From contig SBHJ01000107.1 in the NCBI GenBank assembly GCA_006226465.1, forward strand, positions 1 to 35,037: 35,037 nucleotides of DNA. Direction: 5' to 3'. Positions 14,042 through 31,791 of the stretch are shown piece by piece. Under the pieces are notes generated by a model. That model ran no database searches. It was given only the letters and a program-made list of their open reading frames with translations, and was not told the DNA's origin. Source of the stretch: Alphaproteobacteria bacterium (GTDB lineage: Bacteria > Pseudomonadota > Alphaproteobacteria > Sphingomonadales > Sphingomonadaceae). Position numbers and translations under genes: made by a program. The stretch's first letter is position 1; the number at the start of each line of letters is the position of its first letter.

Positions 14042-14761
14042 GTGAAGGAATCGCAGGCTTATAGCCGGTATCGTGCTGCGCTTGTTCTTGCGCTTGCTCC
14101 AGCCATTTCTGCCTGCAGCACCACTGCGCCACATGTGGGCCCTGTATCGGCAAGCCCGGTCGTAGCGCTGGGCCAATCCGGATACGAGATCAGGCAATCC
14201 GCTCAATACTTATTACGCCCAGCCGATGTGATCTCGGTCACGGTTTTCCGCGAGCCCGATCTTACAGTCCCGAGCGTCCCGATTGGCGCGGATGGAACGG
14301 TCGCCTTGCCGCTGATCGGAACTCTGTCGGCGGCCGGCCTGACCACTGCCGACTTGACCGACGAGGTTGCCCGCCAGCTCGACGATTCGGGGCTCAAGCG
14401 CCCCAAGGTCAGCATAAACATCCTGGAATTCGGATCGCACCAGGTTACGGTCGAAGGCGGTGTAGAGAAGCCGGGCGTTTACGACTTCAGGCCCGGAAGC
14501 AAACTCTCTTCGGCCATTGCCCTGGCGAGCGGTCCCAATCGTGTCGCCAAACTGCGCGAAGTCGCGATTTTTCGCGAGAATGCGCAAGGAATGTCGGTCG
14601 CACTGTTCGATTACTCCGCAGTCCGCGATGGCTCCATGATCGATCCAGTCATCGAACCAGGCGATCGCGTGGTGGTAGGCATTTCGGGCCTGTCGCAGTT
14701 CTGGCAGGATTTCTTGAAGGCGCTGCCAGCCTTCGCGATCTTCAGTAATGTGAATTTCTGA
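14042..14761 (+). CDS. Wza-like polysaccharide export lipoprotein (GTG start)
   Basis: Lipobox-like APAISACSTT; YLLRPADVISVTVFREPDLTVPSVPIGADGTVALPLIGTLSAAGLT (Poly_export) and SLBB-like VTVEGGVEKPGVYDFRPG. Confidence 0.92.
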   Translation: MKESQAYSRYRAALVLALAPAISACSTTAPHVGPVSASPVVALGQSGYEIRQSAQYLLRPADVISVTVFREPDLTVPSVPIGADGTVALPLIGTLSAAGLTTADLTDEVARQLDDSGLKRPKVSINILEFGSHQVTVEGGVEKPGVYDFRPGSKLSSAIALASGPNRVAKLREVAIFRENAQGMSVALFDYSAVRDGSMIDPVIEPGDRVVVGISGLSQFWQDFLKALPAFAIFSNVNF

Positions 14762-14764
14762 AAT

Positions 14765-16993
14765 ATGGCAGGTGCTGCACACATCCAATCCGATCCTAGG
14801 GAAACGCCGGCGGTTCGTCCCTGGGTGGATCGATACCTACCCGATGCGCAATATGGCAAGCAGCCGGACAATGCGCTGGTCAATACGGCCTATTTGCGCG
14901 GCGCCTTGTTTCGCCAGCGGCACCTGATCCTCGCGACAATCGGCCTGGTACTGCTCGCCAGCCTGGTGATCACATTGTTGATGACGCCAATGTACCGTGC
15001 GATCGCGACTGTCCGGATCGATCCCTATGGCAACAATATTGTGCAGGGGCAGGACATCGAACCGGGACTCGCATCCAACGAGATCACGCGATTCATGCTC
15101 ACCCAAGGCACGGTGATTGAGAGCAAGAAGCTGGCGTCGCGCGTTGCCGACAGGTTGAATTTGGCAAACGACCCGGCTTTTGTTGGCGAAATCGAAGACA
15201 GTCCTGATACTGGTCAGGCCGATGCAAAGAACGCGCAGGCAGCGCGCCAAAAGCTGGCAATCGATTTGCTGCAGGCCAATGTCGAAGCCGATGTCCCGAT
15301 CGATAACCGGATTGTCCCGATCAGCTTCGAATCCGATGATCCCGCGATCGCTGCCAGGATCGCCAATGCCTATGCAGACGAATTCGTCCAGGAGGAGACC
15401 CGGCGAAATATCGAGGTCAATCGATATGCGCAGGACTACTTGCAGAGCCAAATCACGGACGTTCGCCAGAAATTGGAAGCCGCTGAACTTGAGGCGAACG
15501 CCTATGCCAAACAATCGGGGATCGTTCGCCAGAACGATGGCATCGCAACTTCGCTCTTCGGCGGTGGCACATCCGCGCCGACGATAACTGCGGCCAATCT
15601 GGCGCAGGTCAACGAAACCTACACAACCGCCAAGGCAACCCGGATCGACGCGGAGCAGCGCTGGCGTGGAGCCGCAGGCACGCCAGCGATGCAGCTCAAG
15701 GAAGTACAGTCAAACACCGCGGTCCAGGAGCTGCAACGGCTGCGCGGGGACCTGAAACGCGAACTCGCGGACCTCCAGCAGCGCTATGACGACAATTATC
15801 CCGCGGTGGTGGAGGTTGAGGCCCAGATCGGTGGAGTCGAAGGCGAGATTTCGCGCCTCGCCGCCGATATCAAGTCGGGGATCCGCCGCGAGTTTGAAGT
15901 GGCCGCACGGCAGGAGCAGGCGTTGCTGGGCGAGCGCCAGCGTGTTTCGCAATTGGCGCTGGGCGAACAGGACCGCCGGGTGCGCTTCGGCATTCTCGAT
16001 CGCGAAGCCGAAGCACTGCGCAACCAGCTGGCGAACTTGCTGCAACGCTATAACGAGATAGCGACTGCGGCCAATGTTCAGGCCGGCACTGTCACGAAGC
16101 TGGATGAGGCCGACATTCCAGTCGAACCTGTTTCGCCCAACCTGGTCAAAAACCTGCTGGTTGCGCTGATTGCCGGTATCGGCCTCGCGGGCGGTCTAGC
16201 GGTTTTGCGAGAGACCTTTGACGAACGCTTGCGTTCGCTTGAAGAAATTGAGGACCGGCTGGGCCATCCCCTGCTCGGCCACACTCCGTTTATTCCCGAG
16301 AGCGAATTGGAGGAGCAGATCAGCAATCCCTTCAGCCCGCTGATGGAGAGCTATTCTTCGATCCTGACCTCACTCGATTATTCGTTGCCGCGCGAAAGGA
16401 ACGTGCTGCAATTCACGAGCAGCCAGGCATCGGAAGGCAAGACGACAACTGCGATATTGCTGGCCGAACTTCTCGCACGACATGGTCGTAAGACTCTGTT
16501 GGTTGATGCCGACCTGCGCAAGCCGTCAGTTGCCGCGCACCTTGGCCACAGCACTCCGGAAGTCGGTTTTGCCGAAGTGATCTTGGGCCGAACCGAGCTG
16601 CGTGATGCACTTTTGCCGGACATGCCTGAAAACCTCGACGTCCTGCCTGTCGCAGTGACACCGCCCAATCCGGTCGAGCTGTTGGCCTCCGGCGCGATTG
16701 GACGATTCGTCGACAGTGTACGAAACGAATATGCCACTGTGATCTTCGATACGTCCCCGGTCATGGGCATCGCCGATGCGCCCCTGCTTTCGCGCAATGT
16801 CGATGCGACGATCTTCATCGTCGAGGCAAATCGGGTGCAGTTCGGACAGGCGCGCGCCGCGCTGAAACGACTGCGTAGCGTTGGCACAAATGTGGTTGGT
16901 ATTGTACTGACGAAGTATCGGGCGCTGCACGCCGGGCAATCGTATGATTACCAATACCGCTATTACCACTACACTCCGGGAAAGTCTGACTGA
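14765..16993 (+). CDS. Wzc-like polysaccharide co-polymerase / BY-kinase fusion
   Basis: Wzz/GNVR region, two TM segments, BY-kinase Walker A FTSSQASEGKTTTAILLAELLARHGRKTLLVDADLRKP, and Tyr-rich tail YDYQYRYYHY. Confidence 0.95.
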   Translation: MAGAAHIQSDPRETPAVRPWVDRYLPDAQYGKQPDNALVNTAYLRGALFRQRHLILATIGLVLLASLVITLLMTPMYRAIATVRIDPYGNNIVQGQDIEPGLASNEITRFMLTQGTVIESKKLASRVADRLNLANDPAFVGEIEDSPDTGQADAKNAQAARQKLAIDLLQANVEADVPIDNRIVPISFESDDPAIAARIANAYADEFVQEETRRNIEVNRYAQDYLQSQITDVRQKLEAAELEANAYAKQSGIVRQNDGIATSLFGGGTSAPTITAANLAQVNETYTTAKATRIDAEQRWRGAAGTPAMQLKEVQSNTAVQELQRLRGDLKRELADLQQRYDDNYPAVVEVEAQIGGVEGEISRLAADIKSGIRREFEVAARQEQALLGERQRVSQLALGEQDRRVRFGILDREAEALRNQLANLLQRYNEIATAANVQAGTVTKLDEADIPVEPVSPNLVKNLLVALIAGIGLAGGLAVLRETFDERLRSLEEIEDRLGHPLLGHTPFIPESELEEQISNPFSPLMESYSSILTSLDYSLPRERNVLQFTSSQASEGKTTTAILLAELLARHGRKTLLVDADLRKPSVAAHLGHSTPEVGFAEVILGRTELRDALLPDMPENLDVLPVAVTPPNPVELLASGAIGRFVDSVRNEYATVIFDTSPVMGIADAPLLSRNVDATIFIVEANRVQFGQARAALKRLRSVGTNVVGIVLTKYRALHAGQSYDYQYRYYHYTPGKSD

Positions 16994-17057: not shown

Positions 17058-18233
17058 ATGAACGAGCCTCCTCTCCTGAACATTTGCCACATTTCTGGCG
17101 ACTTCCCTGACCCGATCAGGCGTGAGAAGACGCCAGCGCTGCGCCGCTTGATCGAACTCACTGCCGCACAATTCCATCACCGCGTTATATCGATAAATCG
17201 GACGGGGCCCGGTTCCGCTCCGGCCCAGGTGCCGTTCGAATTTGGCATGGCGATCACCTATCCGGCTCCGTCGTTGGGGCTGTTCCATGCGACAATGCTC
17301 AACCGATTGGGTAGTTCGATGGCCACGCTTGCCAATGAAAACGGCAAGCCGGATCTTCTGGTAGCCCACAAGCTCACAATCGAGGGAATTGCCGCATATC
17401 GTGCGGCGCGCCTTCTGGACGTGCCATACGCGCTGATCGTCCAGGGCAACACGGATTGCAAGATTCTGCGCGCACGCCCTGACCTGCGACCGCTGTTCAG
17501 GCGCATTTATCAGCGGGCCGCAATCGTGTTCCATCTTGCCCCATGGTCGCGCGACAGCGTCGAAGGCATGCTGGGTGTACGCCACCGTTCTTCGCGACTT
17601 CTGCCATGCGCATTGGCAGAAGACACAATGATCGGTCCCCGCCCCGGCGGGCAAGGGTTCCTTTCGGTGTTCAACCTCGACGGTTATCGAAACAAGAACC
17701 TTGCAGGCTTGGCCAAAGCAATGACGGCCCTGGCCGCTGGTGGAACGGAACTATCGTGCCGGATAGCGGGGGGTGGAAATGATGAGGCGCTGCGGGCTTG
17801 CCAAGCCATTGCCAACCGCACGCCCGGCATGGAGCTGCTTGGCCATTGCAGGCACGAAGAACTTCCCAAGATGTTGAATGCTTCGACAGCTATGGTCCTC
17901 CCGTCGAAAAGGGAGAGTTTCGGGCTGGCCTTTATCGAAGCGTTGATGTCGGGCACGCCGATCATCCATCCGCGCGGCGCAGCCGTTGCAGGATACTTTG
18001 CCGGGTGCGGTTTTGCCTTGACTGTTGATCCGGCGGACCCGCGCGACATTGCCGGTGCGATGGCATATGCAATCGAGAACGAGGCTGAGCTGAAGCGCGA
18101 GTTAGGCGCATGGCAACTTGGGGCTGATGCCCGGCGCTTCAAGCGAGCGCAAATCGCGCTGGACCTTGCCTCCGGCTTGCGTGCGGCAGCCGAAAATGGC
18201 CTGGGCTCAGCCCAGCCTGCGGTTCAGCAATGA
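17058..18233 (+). CDS. GT4-family glycosyltransferase
   Basis: C-terminal GT-B motif KMLNASTAMVLPSKRESFGLAFIEALMSGTPIIHPRGAAVAGYF. Confidence 0.9.
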   Translation: MNEPPLLNICHISGDFPDPIRREKTPALRRLIELTAAQFHHRVISINRTGPGSAPAQVPFEFGMAITYPAPSLGLFHATMLNRLGSSMATLANENGKPDLLVAHKLTIEGIAAYRAARLLDVPYALIVQGNTDCKILRARPDLRPLFRRIYQRAAIVFHLAPWSRDSVEGMLGVRHRSSRLLPCALAEDTMIGPRPGGQGFLSVFNLDGYRNKNLAGLAKAMTALAAGGTELSCRIAGGGNDEALRACQAIANRTPGMELLGHCRHEELPKMLNASTAMVLPSKRESFGLAFIEALMSGTPIIHPRGAAVAGYFAGCGFALTVDPADPRDIAGAMAYAIENEAELKRELGAWQLGADARRFKRAQIALDLASGLRAAAENGLGSAQPAVQQ

Positions 18234-19556
18234 CACTCCGGAAAAGGGTATCGCGAAGCTGACGCTGGTCGCGGCGCCCAGCAGCAGGAAGAACCATGTG
18301 TGCATCCCGCCAACGTATGCGACCGTGAACCCGGCCAGCACCAGCAAGAAGATCGCGATTGCCACGCCGACGAACAGTTTGCGGTCCGGTTCTGCCAGGG
18401 ACAGGCTGGTGGCGCTCAAGCGAAAAATCAAGATCCCGCACACGGCCAGAAACAACACGCTGGGCAGGAAGCCGTGGCGGATGGCGAGCAACAGCCAATG
18501 GTTGTCGATGCTGTTGGTCATCCAGGCCGCGCGTTCGAAATCGGTGTAGCCGATACCGAACCAGGGATTACGCTCGACCGAACGGATCCCGAAATCCCAG
18601 ATCATCTTCCTGTAATATGCAGTGCCGGGATTAAGAGTGAAGCGGATCAATACCGAGATCAGTCCGCTTTGGCTCGCGGCTTGCAAACCAATCAGCACAA
18701 TGCCGCCCGCCACCAGGGCGCCCCGCCAATTCAGGATTTCGACCTTTTGCTGGATCCGGTCGTAAGCCACCAATACGATCGCGAGGATCAGAGAAAGCCA
18801 GGCGGCCGAACTTATGGAGAAGACGGCACATAGACCGGCCGAAATGCCGAAATAGAGTGGCCAGCGCTTCACCCCCCCTTGCAGGATCAAGGGTACGAAG
18901 CTGGCCAGAAACAGCCCCGCCAGGATTGGATGAGGAAATGGCCCGGCTGCACGGAGCATGCCGAGCCGGTAGTCAAAGGTACCGTCGAACAGCCCGACTT
19001 CCATTCCGTTTTCATAGCTTGATAGGGGGCCGAACTGGCTTGCCGCCCAAGGCCGAATCAAGGCCTGGCCTGAAACCGATTCGACCACCATACCCACGCC
19101 CACGAAAATCAGAACCGGCACCGCCATGACGATGGCGCGACGAAAGTCCAGCGGCGAACGAGCACAGATTCGCGCGACAAAAAATGGCGGGAGGATATCG
19201 ATCAGCAACGCACCTCCGCGAATCAGCCCTTCAGTCGCACCGTAAAAAACGATGAAGGACATCTGCATCCACAGCGCGCCGGCCAGAACTATTGCATCTA
19301 TCGCATTCAGTCTGATCTGCGCGCGGAACAGCCGGTTCAATAGCCAAGGCAGGAAGGCAAACGCTGCCATTCGATAGGGGTAGATCGATAGGCCACCGAC
19401 GACGAGCCTGACTTCCTGCGGCAGGCAAGCCGAATAGAGCATGATCAAGAACGGGATGAGACCGAATATGCTCACGTTCGCGCCACTCGCACCGACCTCG
19501 GTCGCGAACGCAGGCGATGAGTCTTGCTCAGCTGGCTCAAATGTCGTCGCAGTCAT
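18207..19556 (-). CDS. O-antigen/EPS polymerase-like (Wzy) multi-TM protein
   Basis: About 10 hydrophobic helices; KMIWDFGIRSVERNPWFGIGYTDFERAAWMTNSIDNHWLLLAIRHGFL resembles the Wzy_C-type loop. Confidence 0.8.
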   Translation of the reverse strand: MTATTFEPAEQDSSPAFATEVGASGANVSIFGLIPFLIMLYSACLPQEVRLVVGGLSIYPYRMAAFAFLPWLLNRLFRAQIRLNAIDAIVLAGALWMQMSFIVFYGATEGLIRGGALLIDILPPFFVARICARSPLDFRRAIVMAVPVLIFVGVGMVVESVSGQALIRPWAASQFGPLSSYENGMEVGLFDGTFDYRLGMLRAAGPFPHPILAGLFLASFVPLILQGGVKRWPLYFGISAGLCAVFSISSAAWLSLILAIVLVAYDRIQQKVEILNWRGALVAGGIVLIGLQAASQSGLISVLIRFTLNPGTAYYRKMIWDFGIRSVERNPWFGIGYTDFERAAWMTNSIDNHWLLLAIRHGFLPSVLFLAVCGILIFRLSATSLSLAEPDRKLFVGVAIAIFLLVLAGFTVAYVGGMHTWFFLLLGAATSVSFAIPFSGVSLLNRRLG

Positions 19557-19707
19557 CTAGGTCCTGCCTCAGCTCGATCACAACTAGGCCGCTCGTGTGA
19601 CTGCCAGCAAGATGCAGGACGAATCTCGCGTGGGAAACAAAGCATTTTCCTACACGAACTCCCGACGTTAGACGATGTTCTCTTTTTGTTCACATTAGGA
19701 GTCCGCC

Positions 19708-19977
19708 ATGCCCAAAGACAACTTCCAGAGCACTTCCGACAGTGTCACCGCCCCCGCTTCACGTTGCTTCGAAATCACGCCCAACGATTCGGTCGAACTG
19801 GTAGAGGCAACCAAGGCCATTTACGTCGGAACCGGCGGCGACGTTACGCTGCGCTCGCTCGATTCCGCTGCGGACGTAACATTCCGCAATATCCAGGATG
19901 GCTCGATCATCGATGTCCGTGTTTCTGCGCTGCGCGCGACGGGCACTTCCGCCAGCGACATCGTAGGGCTCGCCTGA
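19708..19977 (+). CDS. Spike base protein, RCAP_rcc01079-like (GTA/phage head-spike base)
   Basis: Short protein with PASRCFEITPNDSVELVEATKAIYVGTGGDVTLRSL...VTFRNIQDGSIIDVRVSALRATGTSASDIVGLA, the recognised ITPsDS..L..at+AlYVG..GDV...VTF.n...GS...VRv..+.ATGT.A..IV.L pattern; RBS aggag before ATG. Confidence 0.75.
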   Translation: MPKDNFQSTSDSVTAPASRCFEITPNDSVELVEATKAIYVGTGGDVTLRSLDSAADVTFRNIQDGSIIDVRVSALRATGTSASDIVGLA

Positions 19978-22061
19978 TGGCGGGCTTTGGATTTGGTATG
20001 GGCTTTCGCATTGCGCACGCTCACAAGCCAAACCTTCGTACGGCTGAAACACCATTGATCGCCCCTGGCGCGGGGTGGACCGGCGTTGCTGGCTCAGGCT
20101 TCTCCTCAACTCCAGCCGACCTGGCGAGAACCACGGCCAAGCCAGCCATGCGGCTGCTGGTTTTGCCCAACCTGACCTTTTCGGACGAGCTGCTGGTTGG
20201 CGTCTATGCTGGTGCAAACAATGGTGGCTCGCTCTATGCCAACATGGGCCTCTCGCACGTCACCGTGCATTACGAAGGCGCAAGCCACGACATCACCGCA
20301 CCCGGCTTCGCGACTTTCAATGACGCCAACGGCAATCCGGTCACTTACTACGGGTGGTGGATCAAGTTGCAGAAGCCGGTCGGGGTTTCCGGCGAGGCGC
20401 GGGTCTATTTCGAAGCGGTGCCCGCCAACCCTGCCATGCAGCATCGGGTGATTGGGCCGTACAGCTTCTTCCCGCGCGACGTATTCCCGGCCACCGGAAC
20501 CTTGCACGATTATGAGCTGGAGATCGCCCCAACCCCCGCTGAAATCGCTGGGCAGCGCTACAAGAGCTTCACCAATGCGCTCAACTACCTGCGTACGGAA
20601 AGCCTCTCTGTCACGGTGTGGAACCCGCGCCTGACCTGCACCGAGGGTGGGACAATCGACCTCACCGCCAGCTCTAACGCAGCTGCGATCAAGGGCTGGG
20701 TCACGGTCGAAGCCTCCCAGCCGATAACCTTCGCCAAGTCTGATGGTGTTCGCGACACCGACGCAACCTTCCGCCCCAGGCTGGCCAGCTTCCTGTTTCG
20801 CGGAGCAAATATCACCTTCGACACGTCGAACGTTACCCAGTTCTACACCGAACTGAACGAACGTGCCGCTTTCGACGGAGTAAAGATCACCAACTCGCGC
20901 GGGCGTACTGCCCTGTGGCGAAAGGGTGTGCCCAACATGAATCGTTGGGTGCGCGAGAGCAGCTACTTCACCGAATGCGTCCTTGAGAACATTCGGGACA
21001 TCTGCGCCAATACCCAGTTGGCGCGCGGTTGCAGCTTGACCGGCATCCTCAACGATCCCTTCCAGGACGCCCTCTGCGTGGTCGGGAACACGATCGACAC
21101 CGTGAACAACGACCCATGTGCGGTCGATGTCCCGGCATTGACGGTGCAATACGTGGGCGCAGGTGCCTCCGCCACTCTGGAACTAACCGGCACTTCGGAC
21201 GCCAGTTCCCGCACGTTTACCGCCAAGGTTGGCGGATCGAGCGTGGGAACCTTCACGGTTCAGAACTCGCTCGCTGCGTTCAACGCCAACACCAATTATA
21301 CGGTGCAGAACGTGGTGGACTGGCTGAATGGCCTCTCTGGCTGGAGCGCCACCGTGCTCGACAACAGCCGCCGTGCAGCGGCCCTTTCGACGCTGGGCAA
21401 TCAGGGCGCGACCTTTGCTGCAACCGATGTCAAGACCGCACCTGTGACGCTGGCCACCCACTTCGGTCTCCATTCCGACTGGTACGGCAACAATGTCGGC
21501 GGTACGGGCGAGAATGTGATCGTGGCAGACAACAAGGGGATCAACCTGCGGACGCAGAATATCTTCATTGCGGCCTCCAGCCCTGCTCCGAAGGACTTCA
21601 TCTTCGCCAACAATGCGCTGGACAATCGGTTCGACAACCCGACCGGCGAGATCGACAATGCCAACCACTTCTCGCAACTCTCTGCAGCTGCGCACAGCCA
21701 TGTGGTGGTGGTCCACAACAGTATGCCTTCGCAAGGCATGATGCTGCGCGCCGACCTGGGCTACAACCCGGACGCTTACTGTCTGGTCGCCAACAACAGC
21801 TTCCGCTCGCTCGCGTGGTTTGGAACCCCCGACGCAAACCTGGTCATATCCAACAATCACCTGCACGTCGGGCAGAGTGCTCCCAGCGGCTCTACCGGGA
21901 CCACCGCGGGAGGCGACCACACTAGTCTCTATGCAGATGCTCCATCGGGTGATTTCACGCCTGCAGGCGCGCTGGCAACAAACAAGAAACCCGCGACGCT
22001 AAAATTCGATATCTCGCAAAAAAAGCGCGGCACCGTCGCACCGGCGGGGGCAGCGATCTAG
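19977..22061 (+). CDS. Large beta-helix (head-spike/tail-spike-like) protein, translationally coupled to the spike base gene
   Basis: Starts MAGFGFGMGF at a TGATG junction. Long repetitive beta-rich region with runs such as IFANNALDN, HVVVVHNSMPSQGMMLRADL, YCLVANNSF, NLVISNNHLHV; C-terminus KKRGTVAPAGAAI. ORF-track extension to 19524 is spurious because it overlaps the spike-base gene in another frame. Confidence 0.72.
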   Translation: MAGFGFGMGFRIAHAHKPNLRTAETPLIAPGAGWTGVAGSGFSSTPADLARTTAKPAMRLLVLPNLTFSDELLVGVYAGANNGGSLYANMGLSHVTVHYEGASHDITAPGFATFNDANGNPVTYYGWWIKLQKPVGVSGEARVYFEAVPANPAMQHRVIGPYSFFPRDVFPATGTLHDYELEIAPTPAEIAGQRYKSFTNALNYLRTESLSVTVWNPRLTCTEGGTIDLTASSNAAAIKGWVTVEASQPITFAKSDGVRDTDATFRPRLASFLFRGANITFDTSNVTQFYTELNERAAFDGVKITNSRGRTALWRKGVPNMNRWVRESSYFTECVLENIRDICANTQLARGCSLTGILNDPFQDALCVVGNTIDTVNNDPCAVDVPALTVQYVGAGASATLELTGTSDASSRTFTAKVGGSSVGTFTVQNSLAAFNANTNYTVQNVVDWLNGLSGWSATVLDNSRRAAALSTLGNQGATFAATDVKTAPVTLATHFGLHSDWYGNNVGGTGENVIVADNKGINLRTQNIFIAASSPAPKDFIFANNALDNRFDNPTGEIDNANHFSQLSAAAHSHVVVVHNSMPSQGMMLRADLGYNPDAYCLVANNSFRSLAWFGTPDANLVISNNHLHVGQSAPSGSTGTTAGGDHTSLYADAPSGDFTPAGALATNKKPATLKFDISQKKRGTVAPAGAAI

Positions 22062-22072
22062 GGCGGTCGGAC

Positions 22073-23536
22073 TCACGCAGCGTCCCCACCTTCCTTTCTG
22101 CGCCCAAATCGAAGCAGTTCGTACGGGATCATGGTCAAGGATCGCAAGGCCATGATCCCGCCCAAGGTACAGGCGGCCAGGAGCGACGCTTTCCATCCGA
22201 ACAGCAAGGGATGCAACCCCGCCGCTAGCGCGATTGCTCCAACGGGCAACCACAGTTGAGGCCACAACCCACCCAACGGCAAGCCACTCCGCGCAAACAG
22301 CAAGCCGCAATCGACGGCACAGCGGATGGCGAAAGCCGCTGCAAATCCCGGCAGGCCAAAGGCTCCCCCCAGCAACAGCAGCAGCGAGATATAGAATGGC
22401 AGCTCGGCCAGATGGAGCAGGGCGACCGAGCGAGGACTCCCTCGTGCCTGCAACAGGTTAAAGGGAACCTGGGCCAAGGCATTGACCCAAAAGCCGGCTA
22501 GCAGGATGCGTGCGACCAGGATCGAACGGGGGTCCAAATTTGCACCGATCCACAGGTCCAGGAGCGGTTCGGCGAGGCAAATCAGAATAACGATCGGAAC
22601 TGCGTAAAGGATGGCAATAGCGGCTGCGACCTGATTAGCGGAGGCATTCGCCTGTCCCGCATTGTCGCTGGCAAAACGCGGGAACATCACGGTCAGCAAT
22701 GCCTGGGGAAATACCTGCGTCCTGCTACCGACCTGATATGGCACGGCGTATGCGGCGACAGCGACGGCGCCCAGGAACGTGCCGATCAGGAACCTGTCGG
22801 ATAGAATCATGAAAGGCCCGATCACCGCGCTCAGCATGACCCATTTGCCAAAGCGAAACAGTTCAGCTGCTTCGGATGTGCTGGCCTGCCATGGCTGGTC
22901 CTTGAGCAAGTGTCGCCACATTCCGCCAAGCGCCAGAGTCAGCCCGAATGCCCTTCCCGCCAGCGATGCCGCGATCAAGGCGCTCATGTGGTTGCTACCC
23001 AGAGCCGCCACCCCGAGCGGAAACAGCTGCATCAAAGAATTGCCGATGAATGTCGCTAGCGCGGCGGTGCCGAAATTCTGGCTGCCAATAAGGCTGCCAT
23101 GCGCCACGCCGAATATCGTCACGACAGGAATTGTCGCGCCGACAAGCCAGACCGTGTCGATCAGTTCCGCGCGAAGTTCTGCGGAGACATCAAACGGGCC
23201 GGTGAAAAACAGATAGGCCGCTATGCCAGCGAGCACGCCCAAGGCGATCCCGATCGCGCTGTTGGCAACCAGCGCCGTACAGATGGTCTGAGCGCGAGCC
23301 GTGTGCTGGTTGCCCGTCATTGCTGCAATACGCTGCGTGACGGCACGCCCGATACCGAAGTCGGCCTGTCCGAAGTAGCCGAGCAAGAGCCACACAATGG
23401 TCAGCGCACCGAAGCGTGCGGCACCTATGTGTCCGATCAGCAACGGAATGGTGATCAGGGCAATTGCAAGCGGTCCCACACCGCCCATCAGGCTGAAAAA
23501 GCTGTCGCGCAGCGTGGTCGGAGCAGAATGTTTCAC
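22073..23536 (-). CDS. Polysaccharide flippase (Wzx-like)
   Basis: About 12-14 TM segments; FFSLMGGVGPLAIALITIPLLIGHIGAARFGALTIVWLLLGYFGQADFGIGRAVTQRIA is typical of the oligosaccharide flippase N-terminus. Confidence 0.88.
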   Translation of the reverse strand: MKHSAPTTLRDSFFSLMGGVGPLAIALITIPLLIGHIGAARFGALTIVWLLLGYFGQADFGIGRAVTQRIAAMTGNQHTARAQTICTALVANSAIGIALGVLAGIAAYLFFTGPFDVSAELRAELIDTVWLVGATIPVVTIFGVAHGSLIGSQNFGTAALATFIGNSLMQLFPLGVAALGSNHMSALIAASLAGRAFGLTLALGGMWRHLLKDQPWQASTSEAAELFRFGKWVMLSAVIGPFMILSDRFLIGTFLGAVAVAAYAVPYQVGSRTQVFPQALLTVMFPRFASDNAGQANASANQVAAAIAILYAVPIVILICLAEPLLDLWIGANLDPRSILVARILLAGFWVNALAQVPFNLLQARGSPRSVALLHLAELPFYISLLLLLGGAFGLPGFAAAFAIRCAVDCGLLFARSGLPLGGLWPQLWLPVGAIALAAGLHPLLFGWKASLLAACTLGGIMALRSLTMIPYELLRFGRRKEGGDAA

Positions 23537-24438
23537 TTCGCTTCCTGTTGGCGGCCGGGCTTCGGCAGCAACGCGTAGCCTTCGGCGAGGTGCAGTTCCT
23601 CGACAAGCATGCGACGGAGATTCTCCCGCCAGTGATCGGTACTATCTCCGAGCAATTCACGCGTCGCGCTGTCATCCAGCACTGAAAAGGCGGGACGCCG
23701 CGCCGGCGTAGGATGTTGGTCGGTTGAAATCGGGTGAACCGCCGGAAGGCGTGGAACGAGACCCAATGCCTGAGCCTCTTCGGCAATCGCCGTGGCAAAG
23801 CCATACCAGCTCGTTTCGCCGGCATCGCGGTGGTGGTAGGTGCCGGGGCTGTCTGCCGCTGCAAGCGCCCAGATCGTGCGGGCAGCTTCGGGTGCCCAGC
23901 TCGGCGAACCTACCTGGTCGTTGACCACTCTGAGCTCGTCCTGTTCGCGCATAAGTCGCAGCATGGTCCGCACGAAATTGTGGCCGCCTGCGGCATATAT
24001 CCAACTGGTACGCAGGATAATTGATTCATCGCCGGATGCGTCTTCGCCCAACGCCTTGGATCTTCCGTAAACCGACAGTGGATTGCGAATATCATTAGGA
24101 AGATAAGGGCGCTTCGCCTGCCCATCGAAAACGAAATCGGTGGAAACCTGCAGCAAGCGCCCGCCATGGTCGGCAAGCGATCGGGCAAATGCTCCGGGAG
24201 CCTCGGCGTTTACTGCCATGGCCAGCTCGACTTCCTGCTCCGCCCGATCAACCGCAGTAAAGGCACCGGCATTTATCACGAGATCGGGTCGTTCGGCCCG
24301 TACCAGCCGCGCAATCTGCACATGATCCGCCAAATCAAGCGCTGCCCGGTCCAGTCCCCGGCACTCCCAACCCTCCGGAACGCTTGCAAGCAGCGCCTTG
24401 CCCAATTGTCCGCTGGCCCCGGTGACCAGCACCTTCAT
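23533..24438 (-). CDS. rfbD: dTDP-4-dehydrorhamnose reductase
   Basis: MKVLVTGASGQLGKALL, NAGAFTAVDRAEQE, LLQVSTDFVFDGQAKRPY, SVYGRSKALGE, ILRTSWIYAAGGHNFVRTMLRL; ATG at 24438. Confidence 0.95.
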   Translation of the reverse strand: MKVLVTGASGQLGKALLASVPEGWECRGLDRAALDLADHVQIARLVRAERPDLVINAGAFTAVDRAEQEVELAMAVNAEAPGAFARSLADHGGRLLQVSTDFVFDGQAKRPYLPNDIRNPLSVYGRSKALGEDASGDESIILRTSWIYAAGGHNFVRTMLRLMREQDELRVVNDQVGSPSWAPEAARTIWALAAADSPGTYHHRDAGETSWYGFATAIAEEAQALGLVPRLPAVHPISTDQHPTPARRPAFSVLDDSATRELLGDSTDHWRENLRRMLVEELHLAEGYALLPKPGRQQEAK

Positions 24439-24986
24439 GCGAAGACCGGGACTTCGGCCAGTGATAGGCCCCGAGCGTCTCTTTCCGAGATCACGAGTTC
24501 CGCACCTTCCAACGGCCATTCTATGCCCACCGCCGGATCGTTCCATGCCAGGGTGTGTTCGTGTTCCGGCATATAAGGTGCGGTGCATTTGTAGAGGAAA
24601 TCGGTGCCATCTCTTAACGTAAGGAACCCATGGGCAAAGCCTGCGGGAATCCACAGCATGCGCCTGTTCTGATCTGTTAGTTCTACCCCGATCCACCGAC
24701 CGAAATCGGAAGAAGACCGGCGCAGGTCAACCGCTACGTCGAAAACGGCTCCGTTGACGACCCGCACAAGTTTGCCCTGTGCCATCGGAATCTGGAAATG
24801 GAGCCCGCGCAAGACGCCCTTGCGCGAACGACTATGATTGTCCTGCACGAATTCCACATCGAGCCCCGCTTCTCGAAAGCCTTCGGCGTTCCAACTTTCC
24901 AGAAAGAGCCCCCGCGAATCTTCATGCACCTGCGGCTCGATGATCACCGGGCCAGGAATTTCGCACGGGATGAGCTTCACTTGCAT
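24435..24986 (-). CDS. rfbC: dTDP-4-dehydrorhamnose 3,5-epimerase
   Basis: EDSRGLFLESWNAEGFREAGLDVEFVQDNHSRSRKGVLRGLHFQ...FGRWIGVELTDQNRRMLWIPAGFAHGFLTL; ATG at 24986, 4-bp overlap with rfbD. Confidence 0.95.
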   Translation of the reverse strand: MQVKLIPCEIPGPVIIEPQVHEDSRGLFLESWNAEGFREAGLDVEFVQDNHSRSRKGVLRGLHFQIPMAQGKLVRVVNGAVFDVAVDLRRSSSDFGRWIGVELTDQNRRMLWIPAGFAHGFLTLRDGTDFLYKCTAPYMPEHEHTLAWNDPAVGIEWPLEGAELVISERDARGLSLAEVPVFA

Positions 24987-25044: not shown

Positions 25045-26292
25045 TCAACCGGCTTCACCCGCAATGAACGAATCTTCACCGGTCGAGAACTCTCCAGCGA
25101 TCCAGCTGCAAAGCGAAGCATAGCCCGCATATTCGCCACTTCGCTTGACTGTGCTCCTCGCCTTGAAGAAACGAACGCCCTTCTCAATCGCCCATCTGGG
25201 GTAGCCGAGCCAGCGCAGCCTGCTTCGAGGTGACCGCTGCGTGAGATAAGCCAATTCGTTCTGGTTGGGATGAAGGGCCCGGGCGGCCGCCGACATTGTC
25301 CCTGTGCCCCCTTCACTGCGGCCCGCCAGTCGCCACAGTTGCGCGAGCTGACGATGCGTCTCGCCGCGAGCCAGCATGGCACGATCTGCTGCGTCGAGTA
25401 TGTGTACCGGGATCAGTGACTGACTCTCGATCTGCGCTGGAATCCATTCTGCGCCATGCCGCAGCCCAAGCATCACCACCAGCTCCAGCGGCCGCATCAA
25501 TTGCAGTTCGCGCGCTTTGGACAAAACGGCTTCCCAATCCAACGCATTCGCCTTGGCGAGATAATGCAAGTCGGCAAGAATTGTGGGGCCATTTGAGAAA
25601 ACGTGGTGAAGCGTCGCATGCTCGACCAGGTGGAGCAGGTTCAGCCGAGCCGATGGGACGCGGATAGCCTCGCCCATCAGCTCGATCTCTTCGGTTTCGG
25701 CACGGATCATTTCGCACAGCCGTGCATCGCCCGCCCAACCGCGCGCATTCAGCCGGTGATGCAATTCGATCACCAGGCCATGCTCTTCATCGACTATCTC
25801 AGGCAATTGGTGTCCGAACTCAGGCCCATATTGACCGGCCCAAGGCGCGGGTACGAAGCCCTCCTGCGACAGGAGCAGGCTGTGCGCTTGCTCCACTTCC
25901 GATGCAGGCAACAGCAAATCCACATCGCGCAAGACCCGCAGTTGCGGCGCAGGATAATCGCGATAGGCCAATGCGACGCCCTTCAGCGCGATCGGTTCCA
26001 TGCCGGCTTCATGCAGCACCCGCATCGTTCGAACCAACCCGCGCGCCTGTGCAAGGCTGGTCAGCGCCTGATCGCGCGCTTCATGTGCCAATTGTCGCGA
26101 GATCGGGGTTTCGCTTCCGGCCCTGGCGGCAATGTGATGGATCAAGGCCGCGCAGCGCGAACGCTGGGCGAGCATCAACAAGTGATCGCTTTCGCTTTTG
26201 GATAGGCGAGCCAGCGGGTCTGCATTGTCACCTTCGGGATTGGCGAGGCAGGCCAGTAGCACCTGGGCGGCCATATCCTGCGCGAGCTTCAT
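25045..26292 (-). CDS. Nucleotidyltransferase-family protein (NTP_transf_5-like), lasso/RiPP-cluster associated
   Basis: MRVLHEAGMEPIALKGVALAYRDYPAPQLRVLRDVDLLLPASEVEQAHSLLLSQEGF (G-V..A..Y....LR.l.DvDlLl); ATG at 26292 overlaps the ABC transporter stop by 4 bp. Confidence 0.8.
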   Translation of the reverse strand: MKLAQDMAAQVLLACLANPEGDNADPLARLSKSESDHLLMLAQRSRCAALIHHIAARAGSETPISRQLAHEARDQALTSLAQARGLVRTMRVLHEAGMEPIALKGVALAYRDYPAPQLRVLRDVDLLLPASEVEQAHSLLLSQEGFVPAPWAGQYGPEFGHQLPEIVDEEHGLVIELHHRLNARGWAGDARLCEMIRAETEEIELMGEAIRVPSARLNLLHLVEHATLHHVFSNGPTILADLHYLAKANALDWEAVLSKARELQLMRPLELVVMLGLRHGAEWIPAQIESQSLIPVHILDAADRAMLARGETHRQLAQLWRLAGRSEGGTGTMSAAARALHPNQNELAYLTQRSPRSRLRWLGYPRWAIEKGVRFFKARSTVKRSGEYAGYASLCSWIAGEFSTGEDSFIAGEAG

Positions 26293-27983
26293 GGCGCGGT
26301 GCCTTGCCGGTCCAGATCGACAATCTGGTCGGCAATCCCGATCAGCCTCTGGTCGTGGCTCAAGAGCACAACGGTGCACTGCCCGCGGAGCGACCCGACC
26401 GAATGGATGATCGCATCGCAATTGTCCTGGTCGAGCCCTGCACTGACCTCGTCGAGAATCAACAATTGGGGAGCACCCAGCAGTGCTCGTGCCAATGCAA
26501 TTCGCTGCTTTTCACCTCCGGATAACTGCCGGGCTCCTTCGCCCATCCTGGTAGCTAGACCATCGGGCAATTGTCTGACGAAACCGGCCGAAGCCATCTC
26601 CAATGCACGCCACATCTCCGCTTCGTCTACCTCGCTTCGCCCCCAGCTGAGGTTTTCGGCGATCGTCCCGTCAAACAGGTATGGCTCCTGCTCGACATAG
26701 GCGACGTTCCTTCGCCAACCGATCCGGCTGGTGGCATCGAGTGCCATCCCATCGATCAACACTTCGCCGCTATCGGGAACGACCAACCCCGCCAAAATGT
26801 CGGCAAGGCTGCTCTTGCCCGAGCCTGAAGCGCCGCTGACAGCCAGGATCGACCCCTGCGCTACTTTGAGATTGAGTCCATCGAAGACTGAGCGCTCGCG
26901 CCCATGGTAGCGCAAGGTCACATTACTCAATTCCAGCCCATGCTCCAGCGTTACCGCCTGTGCGCCATGATCGAGAAATTCTTCCTGTGCTCGGGCCTCT
27001 GCAATCAGCGACTGAACACTTGCAAGCGCGGGAACGTTGTAGCGCCAGCCGCGCATTCCCTGCTGTATGTTGCCCGCCAGGGGTACAATCCTTGCTATGA
27101 TGGCGACAACCGGGAGAAAAATTGCCAGCGGCATCGCAAACATGGCCAGCGCTCCGAAGACCATTCCCGCCAGCAGCATCACCGCGATGACCTGGAACAG
27201 CATCAGGGTCTCATGGCCGGCCCTGAAGAATCGGGTTTCCAGCTCCACCAATCGGCTGGATGCGCGCGCGAAATTCTGTGCCAGTTCGTGCTCGGCGCCA
27301 ACAATGCGCGCCGCGCGCAGATGCTTCAGCCCGTTCGAAACCAACCGCTGCAATTCGGAATGTGCGCGCACATAGGCCTCGCCTTCTTGCGCATTGCGCC
27401 CCCGCAGCAGCCCGAGCACGAAGGCCGCCGCGACCCCGAGCACGACCACCATCACAGTCAATTGCCAGGATATCAGAGCCGCCGCCGCCACCAGCAAGAA
27501 CAGAGTGACGGCTGCCGCCAGGATTGACAGCGCCTGATCCATCAGTCCCGCAGCCCGGTCAGCCTCGAGCATGATTAGGCTTGCATGATCCGCACTGTTC
27601 TGACGCGCCAGCCAACGCCAGTTCGCGCCGAGTATCGCCTCGTGAACCATGCGCCGCAATCGGTTCGCCAGCTCAAGGTCGAGTGCACGGCGGCTCTCGT
27701 TGCTGGCATAGACAATCAGCGCACGCAGGCTAACCAGGGCCACAACTGCGATCAGCAGCCAGCCGAGCGGCAACTTCGCCACCGGAGCAAGCCATTCCGG
27801 CTGAATCGTGCCGTCATCTGCCTCCGCAACCAATCGTGTGATCGGGACCAGCAAGACCAGGCCAATCCCTTCAGTCAGGCTCGACGCCACCATCAGCATT
27901 CCGAGTACGGCCAGTCGGCCATGCCCAGCCTGACGCATCAGCAAAGCGATCGCCGCTCGGTTCGACATTGGCCCCTCAACCAT
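26289..27983 (-). CDS. ABC transporter, fused permease/ATP-binding (lasso exporter D-type)
   Basis: VSGASGSGKSSLADILAGLVVPDSGEVLIDG, Q-loop and RQLSGGEKQRIALARALLGAPQLLILDEVSAGLD signature; 5-6 TM N-terminus; start 27983 overlaps the upstream stop. Confidence 0.93.
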   Translation of the reverse strand: MVEGPMSNRAAIALLMRQAGHGRLAVLGMLMVASSLTEGIGLVLLVPITRLVAEADDGTIQPEWLAPVAKLPLGWLLIAVVALVSLRALIVYASNESRRALDLELANRLRRMVHEAILGANWRWLARQNSADHASLIMLEADRAAGLMDQALSILAAAVTLFLLVAAAALISWQLTVMVVVLGVAAAFVLGLLRGRNAQEGEAYVRAHSELQRLVSNGLKHLRAARIVGAEHELAQNFARASSRLVELETRFFRAGHETLMLFQVIAVMLLAGMVFGALAMFAMPLAIFLPVVAIIARIVPLAGNIQQGMRGWRYNVPALASVQSLIAEARAQEEFLDHGAQAVTLEHGLELSNVTLRYHGRERSVFDGLNLKVAQGSILAVSGASGSGKSSLADILAGLVVPDSGEVLIDGMALDATSRIGWRRNVAYVEQEPYLFDGTIAENLSWGRSEVDEAEMWRALEMASAGFVRQLPDGLATRMGEGARQLSGGEKQRIALARALLGAPQLLILDEVSAGLDQDNCDAIIHSVGSLRGQCTVVLLSHDQRLIGIADQIVDLDRQGTAP

Positions 27984-29919
27984 CGTTCGAACCTTCGACG
28001 AATTGGACAAATCGGGCAAGCGCGATACCGCGCGGCACGGCGCAAGTCATGCGCAACCAATGGTCTGCACCCTTAACCTCGGTCCCTTCATGCATTTCCA
28101 GATATTGCCTGATCCGCGGCAAGTCGATCACGCTATCCGCAAGCGAGCCATCGCCGATCCGGGCAAGCGACCTGAGCATCGATCCCCGATCACGCGCCAC
28201 TCTCCCCAGAAAGTCGGCTGATTGGATCGCGTTTTGTCTGCCTTCGACAATTTCGTCTGGGATACGCCCCTTGAGCAATCGGCGCGCCAGACTGCGCGGC
28301 ATGCCGTTGCGCAAATACTGCTCGTCAGGGACGCCGGAGCAGAACTCCACCAAAGGACGGAAGGCCAGGGGGCTGCGGGTCTCGACGCCATGCAACAGGC
28401 GCAATCCCAGCGCGATTTCACCGCCTTCCGATTGCGCGGCCGCCAGCATACTGACCCTCGCCTTTGCAGCGGAGGCCGGGGCATACATCCAGGGATCGTT
28501 GCCATCCGCCTCGGCCCGGGCCAGCGCCCCGCGAACGATCTCGCTATTCGGGTCGAGCGGGCACCAAGTTTCGAGCGGTGAGACCGACAGCCCGCGCAAT
28601 TCGTCGATCCGGCGACGCCAAGTGAACGGCAAGTGCGGCATAGCCGCCAGAGACAGAGCCTTGCGCCAGAGCGGACGCTGATCAGGCGAAGCGTTCAGTT
28701 CACGCAGCAGGTGCGCCCATTTGCCGCGCTTCAACCAGGTGGGATAGCCGGTCATTCCATCGTAGCTGAACGCCGCATCGCCAAATTCGCCATCCAGCAG
28801 TACATGTTTGCCGTCGCCGGCAGCCTTGCGATAGAGCCCATGCAGCCAATGCATGTTCATTTCGTTGAAACCGGGACAGCCTGACAGCAGGGCCATCGCA
28901 TCGATATCCGCACCGAATTCTGCCTCTTCGCCAGTCAGGAACACCGGATCGAGCTGCGGATGCATCTCGGCAAATGCATGAACTCGGGCGGATTCATCGT
29001 AAATGAGCCGAGGATTGGCCTTGGGGACCCAGCCCGCAATTGGGACAGCCGTGTAGGACCTCACCCGTTGATCCTGCGGCAATCGGGCAATCAGTGAAGC
29101 AGCGACCGCTTGTGAATCGAGCCCGCCCGACAATTGCAGCGCAGGCGACACAGCTCCTTCGATATTTGCACACACGGCCCGGTCCAGAAGGCCATTGAGC
29201 GCATCGAGGTAGTCCTGGTCGCCAGAAAAAACTTGCGGCGTTACCCTGCCGATATTCCAGAACTGCGCGCTGCGCTCGCCAGCAAGGTCATGGTGTTGCC
29301 GACTTCCGCACGGAACGCGCGACAGGCCCCTGTAATAGCTGCGGCTTCCATCGCCGAAATTGAACAGCGCGACATCAGCGATGCGATGCGGGTCGAGCCG
29401 CAGCTCGACCCCGGACGCGAAGATCGTGCGCGGCAGCGAGGCGGCGATCAACCTGCTCCCGTTGCGCCAGACATAGAGCGGCGGGGCGATGAGCGGCGAA
29501 CGCGCCAGCCGCACGTTTGCCCGATCGGGAAACCATTGGACCGCGGCATATTCACCGACAATTTCTGTGTCGCAGCGCTCGCCCCAGCAGCGAAAGGCGG
29601 CCGCGTAAAGCTCAGCGTCAGACAACTGGGGGGAAGCGCTCAGTCGATCCGCCAAAAATCGGCGCTCCAACAGTCGGCCTGCGAGTATAGTGTAAATGCC
29701 ATCGGCATCCGGTTCCAGCTCCAGCGGCATGATACCCGGCCTATCCGAACCGGGCAGCGCATCGGCCCTCTGGGCGAAGGCAGCTCCCGATTGCATGCAG
29801 TGCCTGATATCCCCGGCCTTGCCCAGTTTCAGGCTGGCTACCATTCGATCCCAGGCCCGCTCCGGCCAGCTTGCCCCAGACAAATCGAATGCGGCGCAGA
29901 TGAGCAGTTGGCGCTGCAC
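27976..29919 (-). CDS. Asparagine-synthetase-like lasso cyclase (C protein)
   Basis: PP-loop LQLSGGLDSQAVAASLIARL; C-terminal Asn_synthase region with LDGEFGDAAFSYDG; N-terminal pseudo-glutaminase lacking the Cys2 nucleophile; directly next to B2. Confidence 0.88.
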   Translation of the reverse strand: MQRQLLICAAFDLSGASWPERAWDRMVASLKLGKAGDIRHCMQSGAAFAQRADALPGSDRPGIMPLELEPDADGIYTILAGRLLERRFLADRLSASPQLSDAELYAAAFRCWGERCDTEIVGEYAAVQWFPDRANVRLARSPLIAPPLYVWRNGSRLIAASLPRTIFASGVELRLDPHRIADVALFNFGDGSRSYYRGLSRVPCGSRQHHDLAGERSAQFWNIGRVTPQVFSGDQDYLDALNGLLDRAVCANIEGAVSPALQLSGGLDSQAVAASLIARLPQDQRVRSYTAVPIAGWVPKANPRLIYDESARVHAFAEMHPQLDPVFLTGEEAEFGADIDAMALLSGCPGFNEMNMHWLHGLYRKAAGDGKHVLLDGEFGDAAFSYDGMTGYPTWLKRGKWAHLLRELNASPDQRPLWRKALSLAAMPHLPFTWRRRIDELRGLSVSPLETWCPLDPNSEIVRGALARAEADGNDPWMYAPASAAKARVSMLAAAQSEGGEIALGLRLLHGVETRSPLAFRPLVEFCSGVPDEQYLRNGMPRSLARRLLKGRIPDEIVEGRQNAIQSADFLGRVARDRGSMLRSLARIGDGSLADSVIDLPRIRQYLEMHEGTEVKGADHWLRMTCAVPRGIALARFVQFVEGSNDG

Positions 29920-29920
29920 T

Positions 29921-30352
29921 TCAGGCCGCTCCGAATTGATCGAAGGTCATGACCGGACAGTAATCGGTCCGAACACATTGGCCGATCAACATTTGGCCAC
30001 CTTGCTCGACCCAGGCGTGATAGGCATGCGGCCCATTCCGGTCGATGCGATGCACGGCGACAACCAACCGCGATGACAGGCGTGCGCGCCGCAACATCCA
30101 TTGCAATGCAACTGCCTTGGGCAGGCATTTGCTCTTACCCGGCAGCCGCATCGCAGCGCGTTCGATCCGTCGGGCGATCGCCAATGCGGTAGCAGCGTCA
30201 GCGGAAACCGGACAGCTATTCCCGTCGGCTCCGGCGATCGACCCAAGCGTCGATCGAAAAGTGCGAAGCGGCGCGATACGCACCAAAGCACGCGCCAGTG
30301 CCAACCAGGCCATGGCCTGCAAAGTGGCGAGGCGGCTACGCCACACGTTCAC
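29921..30352 (-). CDS. Lasso peptide biosynthesis B2 protein (transglutaminase-like leader protease)
   Basis: KCLPKAVALQWMLRRARLSSRLVVAVHRIDRNGPHAYHAWVEQGG carries the Cys/His of Transglut_core3 B2 proteins. Confidence 0.88.
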   Translation of the reverse strand: MNVWRSRLATLQAMAWLALARALVRIAPLRTFRSTLGSIAGADGNSCPVSADAATALAIARRIERAAMRLPGKSKCLPKAVALQWMLRRARLSSRLVVAVHRIDRNGPHAYHAWVEQGGQMLIGQCVRTDYCPVMTFDQFGAA

Positions 30353-30366
30353 TCCAGCCCCCCCGG

Positions 30367-30636
30367 TCAGCTGTACTCGGCGAAACCTGCGTCAACCAGT
30401 CGGTTGGTGAATTGAGCAACAGAACGCCGACAATGATCATGCCCGACATCATAGCTATTGAGCAGCGATTGGACGATAGCATCGGGATCATTGCTGTGGT
30501 CAAGCGCCCGCCAGATTGCGAGGCCCGTACCTGCCAGCGAGAAGAATGCGCCTGTATCCGCTTGGACGAGAATTAATTCGCCATCGATCTCGGCGGCAAG
30601 ATATTTGTCAGGCCGTTTTCGGATGGATGTGCGCAT
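30367..30636 (-). CDS. PqqD-like RiPP recognition element (lasso B1)
   Basis: 89 aa; DKYLAAEIDGELILVQADTGAFFSLAGTGLAIWRALD matches PqqD/B1; next to B2. Confidence 0.85.
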   Translation of the reverse strand: MRTSIRKRPDKYLAAEIDGELILVQADTGAFFSLAGTGLAIWRALDHSNDPDAIVQSLLNSYDVGHDHCRRSVAQFTNRLVDAGFAEYS

Positions 30637-30661
30637 GCAGGATACTATTGTTTAGCCATGC

Positions 30662-30817
30662 TCAACTTGGGGTGGCTGATTTGCCATTGCTGATCTTGTT
30701 ATCGCCCGGCGGAAACGCATTTCCGGCGATTGCAGTCAGATCGACCGTCAATTGAACCAATTCCGGGTCAGACCACTGTTCCCGCCGTGTATCACCAAAT
30801 TCATTTTTACCGGGCAT
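30662..30817 (-). CDS. Candidate lasso-peptide precursor (A), 51 aa, absent from the supplied ORF track
   Basis: Manual translation: MPGKNEFGDTRREQWSDPELVQLTVDLTAIAGNAFPPGDNKISNGKSATPS. Located between the kinase and B1, co-directional; RBS-like gggaag 5' of ATG; WxxPxL leader motif, Thr near the leader/core boundary, Asp39 as macrolactam acceptor candidate, C-terminal Ser. Confidence 0.72.
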   Translation of the reverse strand: MPGKNEFGDTRREQWSDPELVQLTVDLTAIAGNAFPPGDNKISNGKSATPS

Positions 30818-30930
30818 CGTGAGGCTTCCCAAGCGGTCGGTCCGTATCGCGGATCATGCTTAATCATAGGTGAATCGCGAATGAGCGACAACCGCGGCGG
30901 CATTTCACTCCACCGATCTTCTGGAGCCGG

Positions 30931-31791
30931 TCAGAGCCCTGCAGCTTGGAGAATTTGAGAGGTGCGCTCGCAGGCTTTAGCGACTGTTGCCGATTCGCGA
31001 GGCCTTGTCAGGCGCCAGAAACGCACCTCGCTTGCTAGTTTGAGCATGATGTCGGCATGAAATCCGTGGTTACCTCGCGCTGCGTGAATGAAGCTGCGAT
31101 ACATGGCTTGCGGCAGCATGTTGAGCTTGGTTGCCCCGGTTACCGGGATCAAAGCGAATTCTTTGCCGATCTCGAGGAAGATCAGGTCGCCGAGCGGCAA
31201 CACCCTGGTTTCGCTTCGTCTTGCTTGGCCATAGTGCTTGTCGGGTACGGTTGCGACCGGGCCCAAGGGTGCCACCGCGAGCTGCTTCAATGCATCGCTC
31301 CACAGTTTCATGGGCCGCTTGTCGGGCAGGCAGACTGGCGGGCTTCCCTGAACAGGAAGCACGATCAGTGTGTCGTCGCAGACGTGATCGTAGCCATAGT
31401 CGATCAATCCCGCCGCCAGCGTCGATTTCCCGCCTCCGGAATCGGCGGTGAAGGCGATCACGCGGTCATTGCGCGAGACTGAAGAGGCATGGAGGGGGAC
31501 AAGTCCATTGTACCATGCGACCGCGCCATAGACTGTGCCCCATAAATAGAGCTCGAATTCGCCGCGCAGCGCCTCATCGGGCAATTCGACAATGACCCCG
31601 CCATCCTTGCGATAGTGGAAGCGGATGCCTCCGGGGGTCTCGAACCAGAAGCGATCGCGCGCCATGCAGAGATGGCCGTCCCGATATATAAGCTCTCCCT
31701 CGATGTCGGGGACTGGCAATATCTGTACCGCCATGGCCTGCCTTAGCCCGGCGTTCGCTGCCTCAATTTTGTCGACCGGATCTTCCGCCAT
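30931..31791 (-). CDS. HPr kinase/phosphorylase-like kinase (lasso precursor kinase type)
   Basis: Walker A AFTADSGGGKSTLAAGLIDYGYDHVCDDTLIVLP, typical HPrK-like core; upstream of the precursor candidate. Start could be the internal ATG at 31734. Confidence 0.82.
   Translation of the reverse strand: MAEDPVDKIEAANAGLRQAMAVQILPVPDIEGELIYRDGHLCMARDRFWFETPGGIRFHYRKDGGVIVELPDEALRGEFELYLWGTVYGAVAWYNGLVPLHASSVSRNDRVIAFTADSGGGKSTLAAGLIDYGYDHVCDDTLIVLPVQGSPPVCLPDKRPMKLWSDALKQLAVAPLGPVATVPDKHYGQARRSETRVLPLGDLIFLEIGKEFALIPVTGATKLNMLPQAMYRSFIHAARGNHGFHADIMLKLASEVRFWRLTRPRESATVAKACERTSQILQAAGL

Follow-up and report, generated by a model that had tools for sequence, protein, structure and literature searches.

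A pair of overlapping genes within an exopolysaccharide (EPS) locus of Erythrobacter probably encodes the head spike of a gene transfer agent (GTA) similar to that of R. capsulatus (RcGTA), which would be expressed together with the GTA regulon and hold on to the EPS of that same locus. The window, meaning the whole stretch of DNA that was analyzed, is 35,037 nucleotides long. Its relevant features are these:

14042-14761, plus strand: Wza-type polysaccharide export protein (Pfam PF02563)
14765-16993, plus strand: Wzc-type chain-length kinase (Pfam PF02706, PF13807, PF13614)
17058-18233, plus strand: glycosyltransferase group 1 (Pfam PF00534)
18207-19556, minus strand: EPS polymerase with a Wzy_C domain, divergent left neighbour of the pair (Pfam PF04932, E 2.7e-9)
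19645-19653, plus strand: putative GTA-regulon box TTTTCCTAC, 54 bp upstream of the base ATG
19677-19691, plus strand: LexA-type direct repeat GTTCTCTTTTTGTTC (GTTC-N7-GTTC), its regulator presumed
19708-19977, plus strand: 89-aa head-spike base gene of the Rcc01079/GhsA family, assigned by sequence matches and predicted fold, with 50 homologues in the genus
19977-22061, plus strand: 694-aa probable head-spike fibre gene, predicted right-handed beta-helix (AlphaFold), translationally coupled to the base
19980-20006, plus strand: putative docking peptide AGFGFGMGF, fibre residues 2-10, equivalent of Rcc01080 IALGLGLGL
21129-21401, plus strand: fibre insert, about residues 385-475, resembling a phage tail-sheath domain (Foldseek, tblastn)
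22073-23536, minus strand: Wzx-type flippase, right neighbour of the pair (Pfam PF13440 / PF01943)
23533-24986, minus strand: RmlD and RmlC, dTDP-rhamnose synthesis (Pfam PF04321, PF00908)

The base and fibre ORFs overlap through TGATG, with the TGA at 19975-19977 and the ATG at 19977-19979. Both are encoded on the plus strand, and the flanking wzy and wzx are both on the minus strand. The first-pass annotation had placed the pair inside a polysaccharide locus, between wzy and wzx, with no other phage structural genes in the window. This description holds: both ORFs are present, their neighbours were typed by Pfam, and a Pfam scan of 20 window proteins revealed no phage structural protein. The source MAG comprises 2.14 Mb in 330 contigs and is 68% complete. 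One of its contigs (C210) carries the homologous region of a second strain, with the same gene order and 87% nucleotide identity (base 96%, fibre 91%, Wzy 89% identical to the window), and the arrangement is therefore not a misassembly. A lasso-peptide-like cluster occupies positions 25045-31791 of the window and includes NTP_transf_5, an ABC transporter, an asparagine synthase and Transglut_core3, along with a PqqD-like 89-aa ORF and an HPr-kinase-like gene (both by eye); no lasso precursor was found in this cluster.

By sequence and predicted fold, the 89-aa protein is a homologue of the RcGTA head-spike base Rcc01079. A phmmer search against the PDB aligned residues 5-84 of its 89 residues with Rcc01079 (E 1.8e-9) and also returned the spike base of phage Carin1 (E 0.067), and phrog_12296, labelled "tail fiber", was matched at E 2.6e-19. 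The predicted model is a jelly-roll (pLDDT 88) whose top Foldseek match is 6tb9 (RcGTA capsid; Rcc01079) at TM 0.79/0.84, with Carin1 also among the best. The family assignment made at first reading is borne out by both searches. Glu12 of the RcGTA base, which coordinates a cation, aligns with Thr14 of the window base.

The spike bases of Carin1, phrog_12296 and RcapNL belong to the same family as the window base, but they are phage-encoded and lie outside host polysaccharide loci. Homologous bases are also present in two prophages (L033 and L029). These occurrences are what would be expected if the pair served a resident prophage or passing phages, as a cargo gene of the EPS locus, and not a GTA. 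We regard this as very improbable, because the copies in the genus have no surrounding phage genes, the same locus is conserved over dozens of species, and promoter elements described below are common to the spike, the GTA holin and the main GTA cluster. In prophage L033 (G095:C107) the base gene is found between a capsid gene and connector genes, as named by eye.

The preferred reading as a GTA head spike calls for a partner of the Rcc01080 type, which the 694-aa protein had been proposed to be. The RcGTA spike has five bases that grip residues 2-10 (IALGLGLGL) of a single Rcc01080 fibre (PMC7296036). Relatives of the window fibre carry variants of the docking peptide such as PGIGLGFGL and PGFGFGFGF. 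Across several orders, this Gly-hydrophobic motif was found in 54 of 97 distinct coupled downstream proteins, versus 28 of 1443 control genes (odds ratio 63), and 104 of 113 downstream genes overlap the base gene by 1 or 4 nt. The AlphaFold model of the fibre (pLDDT 90) is a right-handed beta-helix in which the first 21 residues, docking peptide included, are disordered. The proposed identity is thus supported by the docking peptide, the coupling and the modelled beta-helix. The fibre gave no significant PHROG or Pfam match, and a whole-fibre Foldseek search of the PDB returned nothing with E < 0.001. Matches to ACE2 in the PDB sequence search were rejected as chance.

Structural alignment of the fibre model by VIA-align gave Z values of 13-16 against polysaccharide lyases, epimerases and phage tailspikes, including RbmB (Z 16.2), AlgE6 (Z 15.6), PL6 lyases, and the tailspikes of Sf6, HK620 and CBA120. 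All share the right-handed beta-helix, but sequence homology to the window fibre is not detectable for any of these groups, and beta-helix likeness is by itself no proof that the fibre has enzymatic activity. The insert in the fibre resembles neck-tail and baseplate chains of phage 812 (Foldseek probability 1.00, rmsd 3.1-3.5 over about 117 residues) and the tail sheath of Bordetella phage PHB04 (tblastn E 4e-4).

The upstream regions provide the strongest link between the spike and the GTA, as judged from their motif content. The box [CT]TTTCCTAC is present in 49 of 51 Erythrobacter spike promoters, 46-74 bp before the base gene (mode 54), and has only 5 other matches in 1.9 Mb of EPS-locus DNA. 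The same box occurs in 28 of 30 GTA_holin_3TM promoters, 27 of which (of 30) carry the palindrome AACC-N5-GGTT, and the GTA holin of the window's own MAG (G000:C159) is preceded by both. Downstream of the box, GTTC-N7-GTTC is found in 20 of 52 spike promoters, the window's included, where about 0.002 would be expected per 90 bp; in 18 of the 52 the palindrome takes its place. Half of the GTA main-cluster promoters (10 of 20) have the palindrome as well, and the strict form TAACC-N5-GGTTA has just two occurrences in one genome (G082), one in the spike promoter and the other in that of the first GTA gene. The spike-type box was found in just 1 of the 20 main-cluster promoters, the common element there being the palindrome. 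From the box and the palindrome together, the spike appears to have its regulation in common with GTA genes. LexA is no more than the likely reader of GTTC-N7-GTTC, since this repeat is not enriched genome-wide and its AT-rich copies precede genes judged by eye to be uvrD and mmcB.

Two further occurrences of these elements were seen. The box ACTTTCCTACA also precedes a DUF6456 gene at L202:1569-2036 (G090) and L214:970-1440 (G088), which might encode a GTA regulator. At L179 (G021), TAACC-N5-GGTTA lies beside a reverse-strand TTTCCTAC match upstream of a resolvase/recombinase gene.

The spike family was identified in 50 of 99 congeners, and a GTA capsid or tail gene (TIGR02217) in 46 of the 99. 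Where both are on one contig, the spike typically lies 130-330 kb from the GTA cluster. Scored by capsid and TIGR02217, spike and GTA show a modest tendency to co-occur (odds ratio 3.3, p 0.014, genomes at least 90% complete). We rejected the GTA "absences" scored in this way as a sign of weak co-occurrence: TerL and gp1 show remnants in most such genomes. With TerL added as a marker, a GTA or remnant is found in 48 of 50 spike-bearing genomes versus 23 of 31 tested genomes lacking the spike (p 0.006, a value that ignores kinship). The first-pass annotation had asked whether the genome has GTA or other particle genes, and in particular a capsid-tail cluster. The MAG does encode the GTA holin, with the same promoter box as the spike, and a full-length GTA-type terminase (TerL) ending about 100 bases before its contig end; a search of this 68% complete assembly for portal, capsid and distal-tail genes found none. 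The copies in congeners are less diverged than this terminase (about 60%), whose contig may therefore be of foreign origin.

At least 15 spike pairs remain intact although the GTA cluster of the genome concerned has been deleted or truncated. Their retention, like the fold that the fibre shares with polysaccharide lyases and epimerases and the Tat-like signal on the partner in two species, would fit co-option of the pair for GTA-independent handling of EPS, perhaps as an enzyme that processes EPS on the cell or after release, with its virion ancestry being mere history. We consider this unlikely. The docking peptide, the base gene and the GTA-type promoter are all kept, and in one GTA-deleted genome (G049) the spike pair is decaying. 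Furthermore, most coupled partners, the window fibre included, have no evident signal peptide; no Sec or Tat pattern was seen by eye in the N-terminus of the window fibre, MAGFGFGMGFRIAHAHKPN. The two Tat-like partners (L061:9977-13060, TRRSFMFGA; L064:9846-12908, SRRAFLVGA), possibly exported versions, come from Erythrobacter colymbi and a Porphyrobacter MAG.

In at least 10 congeners the GTA main cluster is deleted at an identical junction, with the terminase at about codon 150 joined to a gene at the cluster end that we take to be DUF2793-like (L222, L272 and L274-L281, in G021, G030, G066, G048, G080, G009, G084, G089, G025 and G097). In G053 and G051 the left breakpoint is the same and the right side differs. 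Where intact sisters are available (G021/G090, G030/G061), both flanks of the common junction group with the sister, and this deletion has thus apparently arisen more than once.

As for the linkage of the spike pair to polysaccharide genes, nearly all copies in the genus lie at most 10 kb from homologues of Wza, Wzc and/or Wzy. Similar pairs are found in EPS clusters on plasmids of the Rhodobacterales (Rhodovulum, Sulfitobacter and Marinovum). In other orders, the neighbours of homologues are rich in glycosyltransferases, Wzy_C proteins and flippases, and some copies are placed elsewhere. In R. capsulatus, the head-spike genes Rcc01079-Rcc01080 (GhsA/GhsB) lie beside the capsule genes rcc01081-rcc01086 and are co-regulated with capsule genes (PMC10218006). 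The linkage is thus a recurrent pattern, not one peculiar to the window, and with the adjacency already published for R. capsulatus it is not in itself new. New here are how widely the linkage is distributed, its occurrence among Wzx/Wzy genes, the size of the fibre, the promoter code and the covariation with Wzy. Among Sphingomonas/Sphingobium relatives (L103, L112, L120 and L140) the pair is in a conserved common setting; in L103, dapB and nth are upstream of the pair and a phage-type lysozyme is downstream, perhaps a GTA lysis module.

The fibre varies together with the polymerase. Over 32 loci, the Mantel r of the fibre body is 0.73 with Wzy, versus 0.48 with Wzc and 0.29 with Wza, and the partial Mantel r for fibre and Wzy is 0.64 given Wzc and Wza. 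Among distant pairs the fibre-Wzy correlation is 0.45, the corresponding values being 0.16 (base) and 0.04 (Wzc). One pair of loci, L063 and L068, is 92% alike in Wzc, yet only 31% in Wzy and 57% in the fibre. The suggestion that fibre and wzy be compared is therefore answered by a fibre that tracks Wzy. Such covariation can reflect proximity, selection for matching, or both. The linkage might even be functionless, an ancient insertion passed down along with the EPS locus, its covariation arising from proximity alone: neighbouring genes recombine together, and the base correlates with Wzy too (r 0.53). This also seems improbable to us. The base, although located between fibre and Wzy, follows the polymerase less closely than the fibre does (partial r 0.54 for fibre and Wzy when Wzc, Wza and the base are all controlled for), the fibre-Wzy correlation reaches r 0.85 where Wzy is non-adjacent, more than 1 kb away, and spikes are linked to polysaccharide genes in R. 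capsulatus (PMC10218006) and on the Rhodobacterales plasmids as well. The conserved linkage and the covariation together support the earlier view that the spike is linked, and perhaps co-evolving, with the polysaccharide; co-transfer of neighbours may account for part of the covariation.

If the pair is a GTA head spike, five jelly-roll bases on a capsid vertex would enclose the N-terminal Gly-hydrophobic peptide of a single fibre, by analogy with RcGTA. The beta-helix of the fibre would then hold, and possibly cleave, the exopolysaccharide that the enclosing Wzx/Wzy locus produces. Transcription of the pair would be separate from that of the EPS genes and start from a promoter composed of the GTA-holin box and a second element, the LexA-type repeat in the window strain and the AACC-N5-GGTT palindrome in others. 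With the GTA-holin box in their promoter, spikes would be made alongside GTA particles. Since the spike sits inside the polysaccharide cassette, recombination would tend to swap lock and key together. Particles would in this way stay directed at cells that wear the same coat as the producer, and co-transfer may be a selected trait.

The window pair has in common with the RcGTA spike a homologous base, a coupled partner with a Gly-hydrophobic N-terminal peptide, and a position off the main GTA cluster beside polysaccharide genes (PMC10218006, PMC7296036). It differs in its fibre, a predicted beta-helix of 694 aa (up to 2470 aa in relatives), whereas Rcc01080 has 325 aa and is lectin-like, and in being embedded between wzy and wzx with its own promoter code. 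Phage tailspikes are trimers attached to the tail, whereas the window fibre, on the RcGTA model, would be attached by its peptide to the capsid vertex, one per spike. A base gene followed by a coupled gene whose product starts with a Gly-hydrophobic peptide, together with the [CT]TTTCCTAC box, also makes a sequence rule for GTA receptor-binding proteins that homology search misses.

More tentatively, the EPS locus could be a transferable lock-and-key cassette, a possibility to which we give rather less than even weight, in which receptor polysaccharide and spike are inherited and exchanged as a unit, directing GTA exchange to cells with the same cassette. One proposal for why suicidal GTA production persists is that a polysaccharide receptor restricts delivery to close kin. 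A spike that lies in the polysaccharide locus, appears to be switched with the GTA holin and tracks the polymerase makes this proposal directly testable in Erythrobacter. The cassette, if real, would be a greenbeard-like address label and would be relevant to the question of how GTA production, costly as it is, withstands cheaters.
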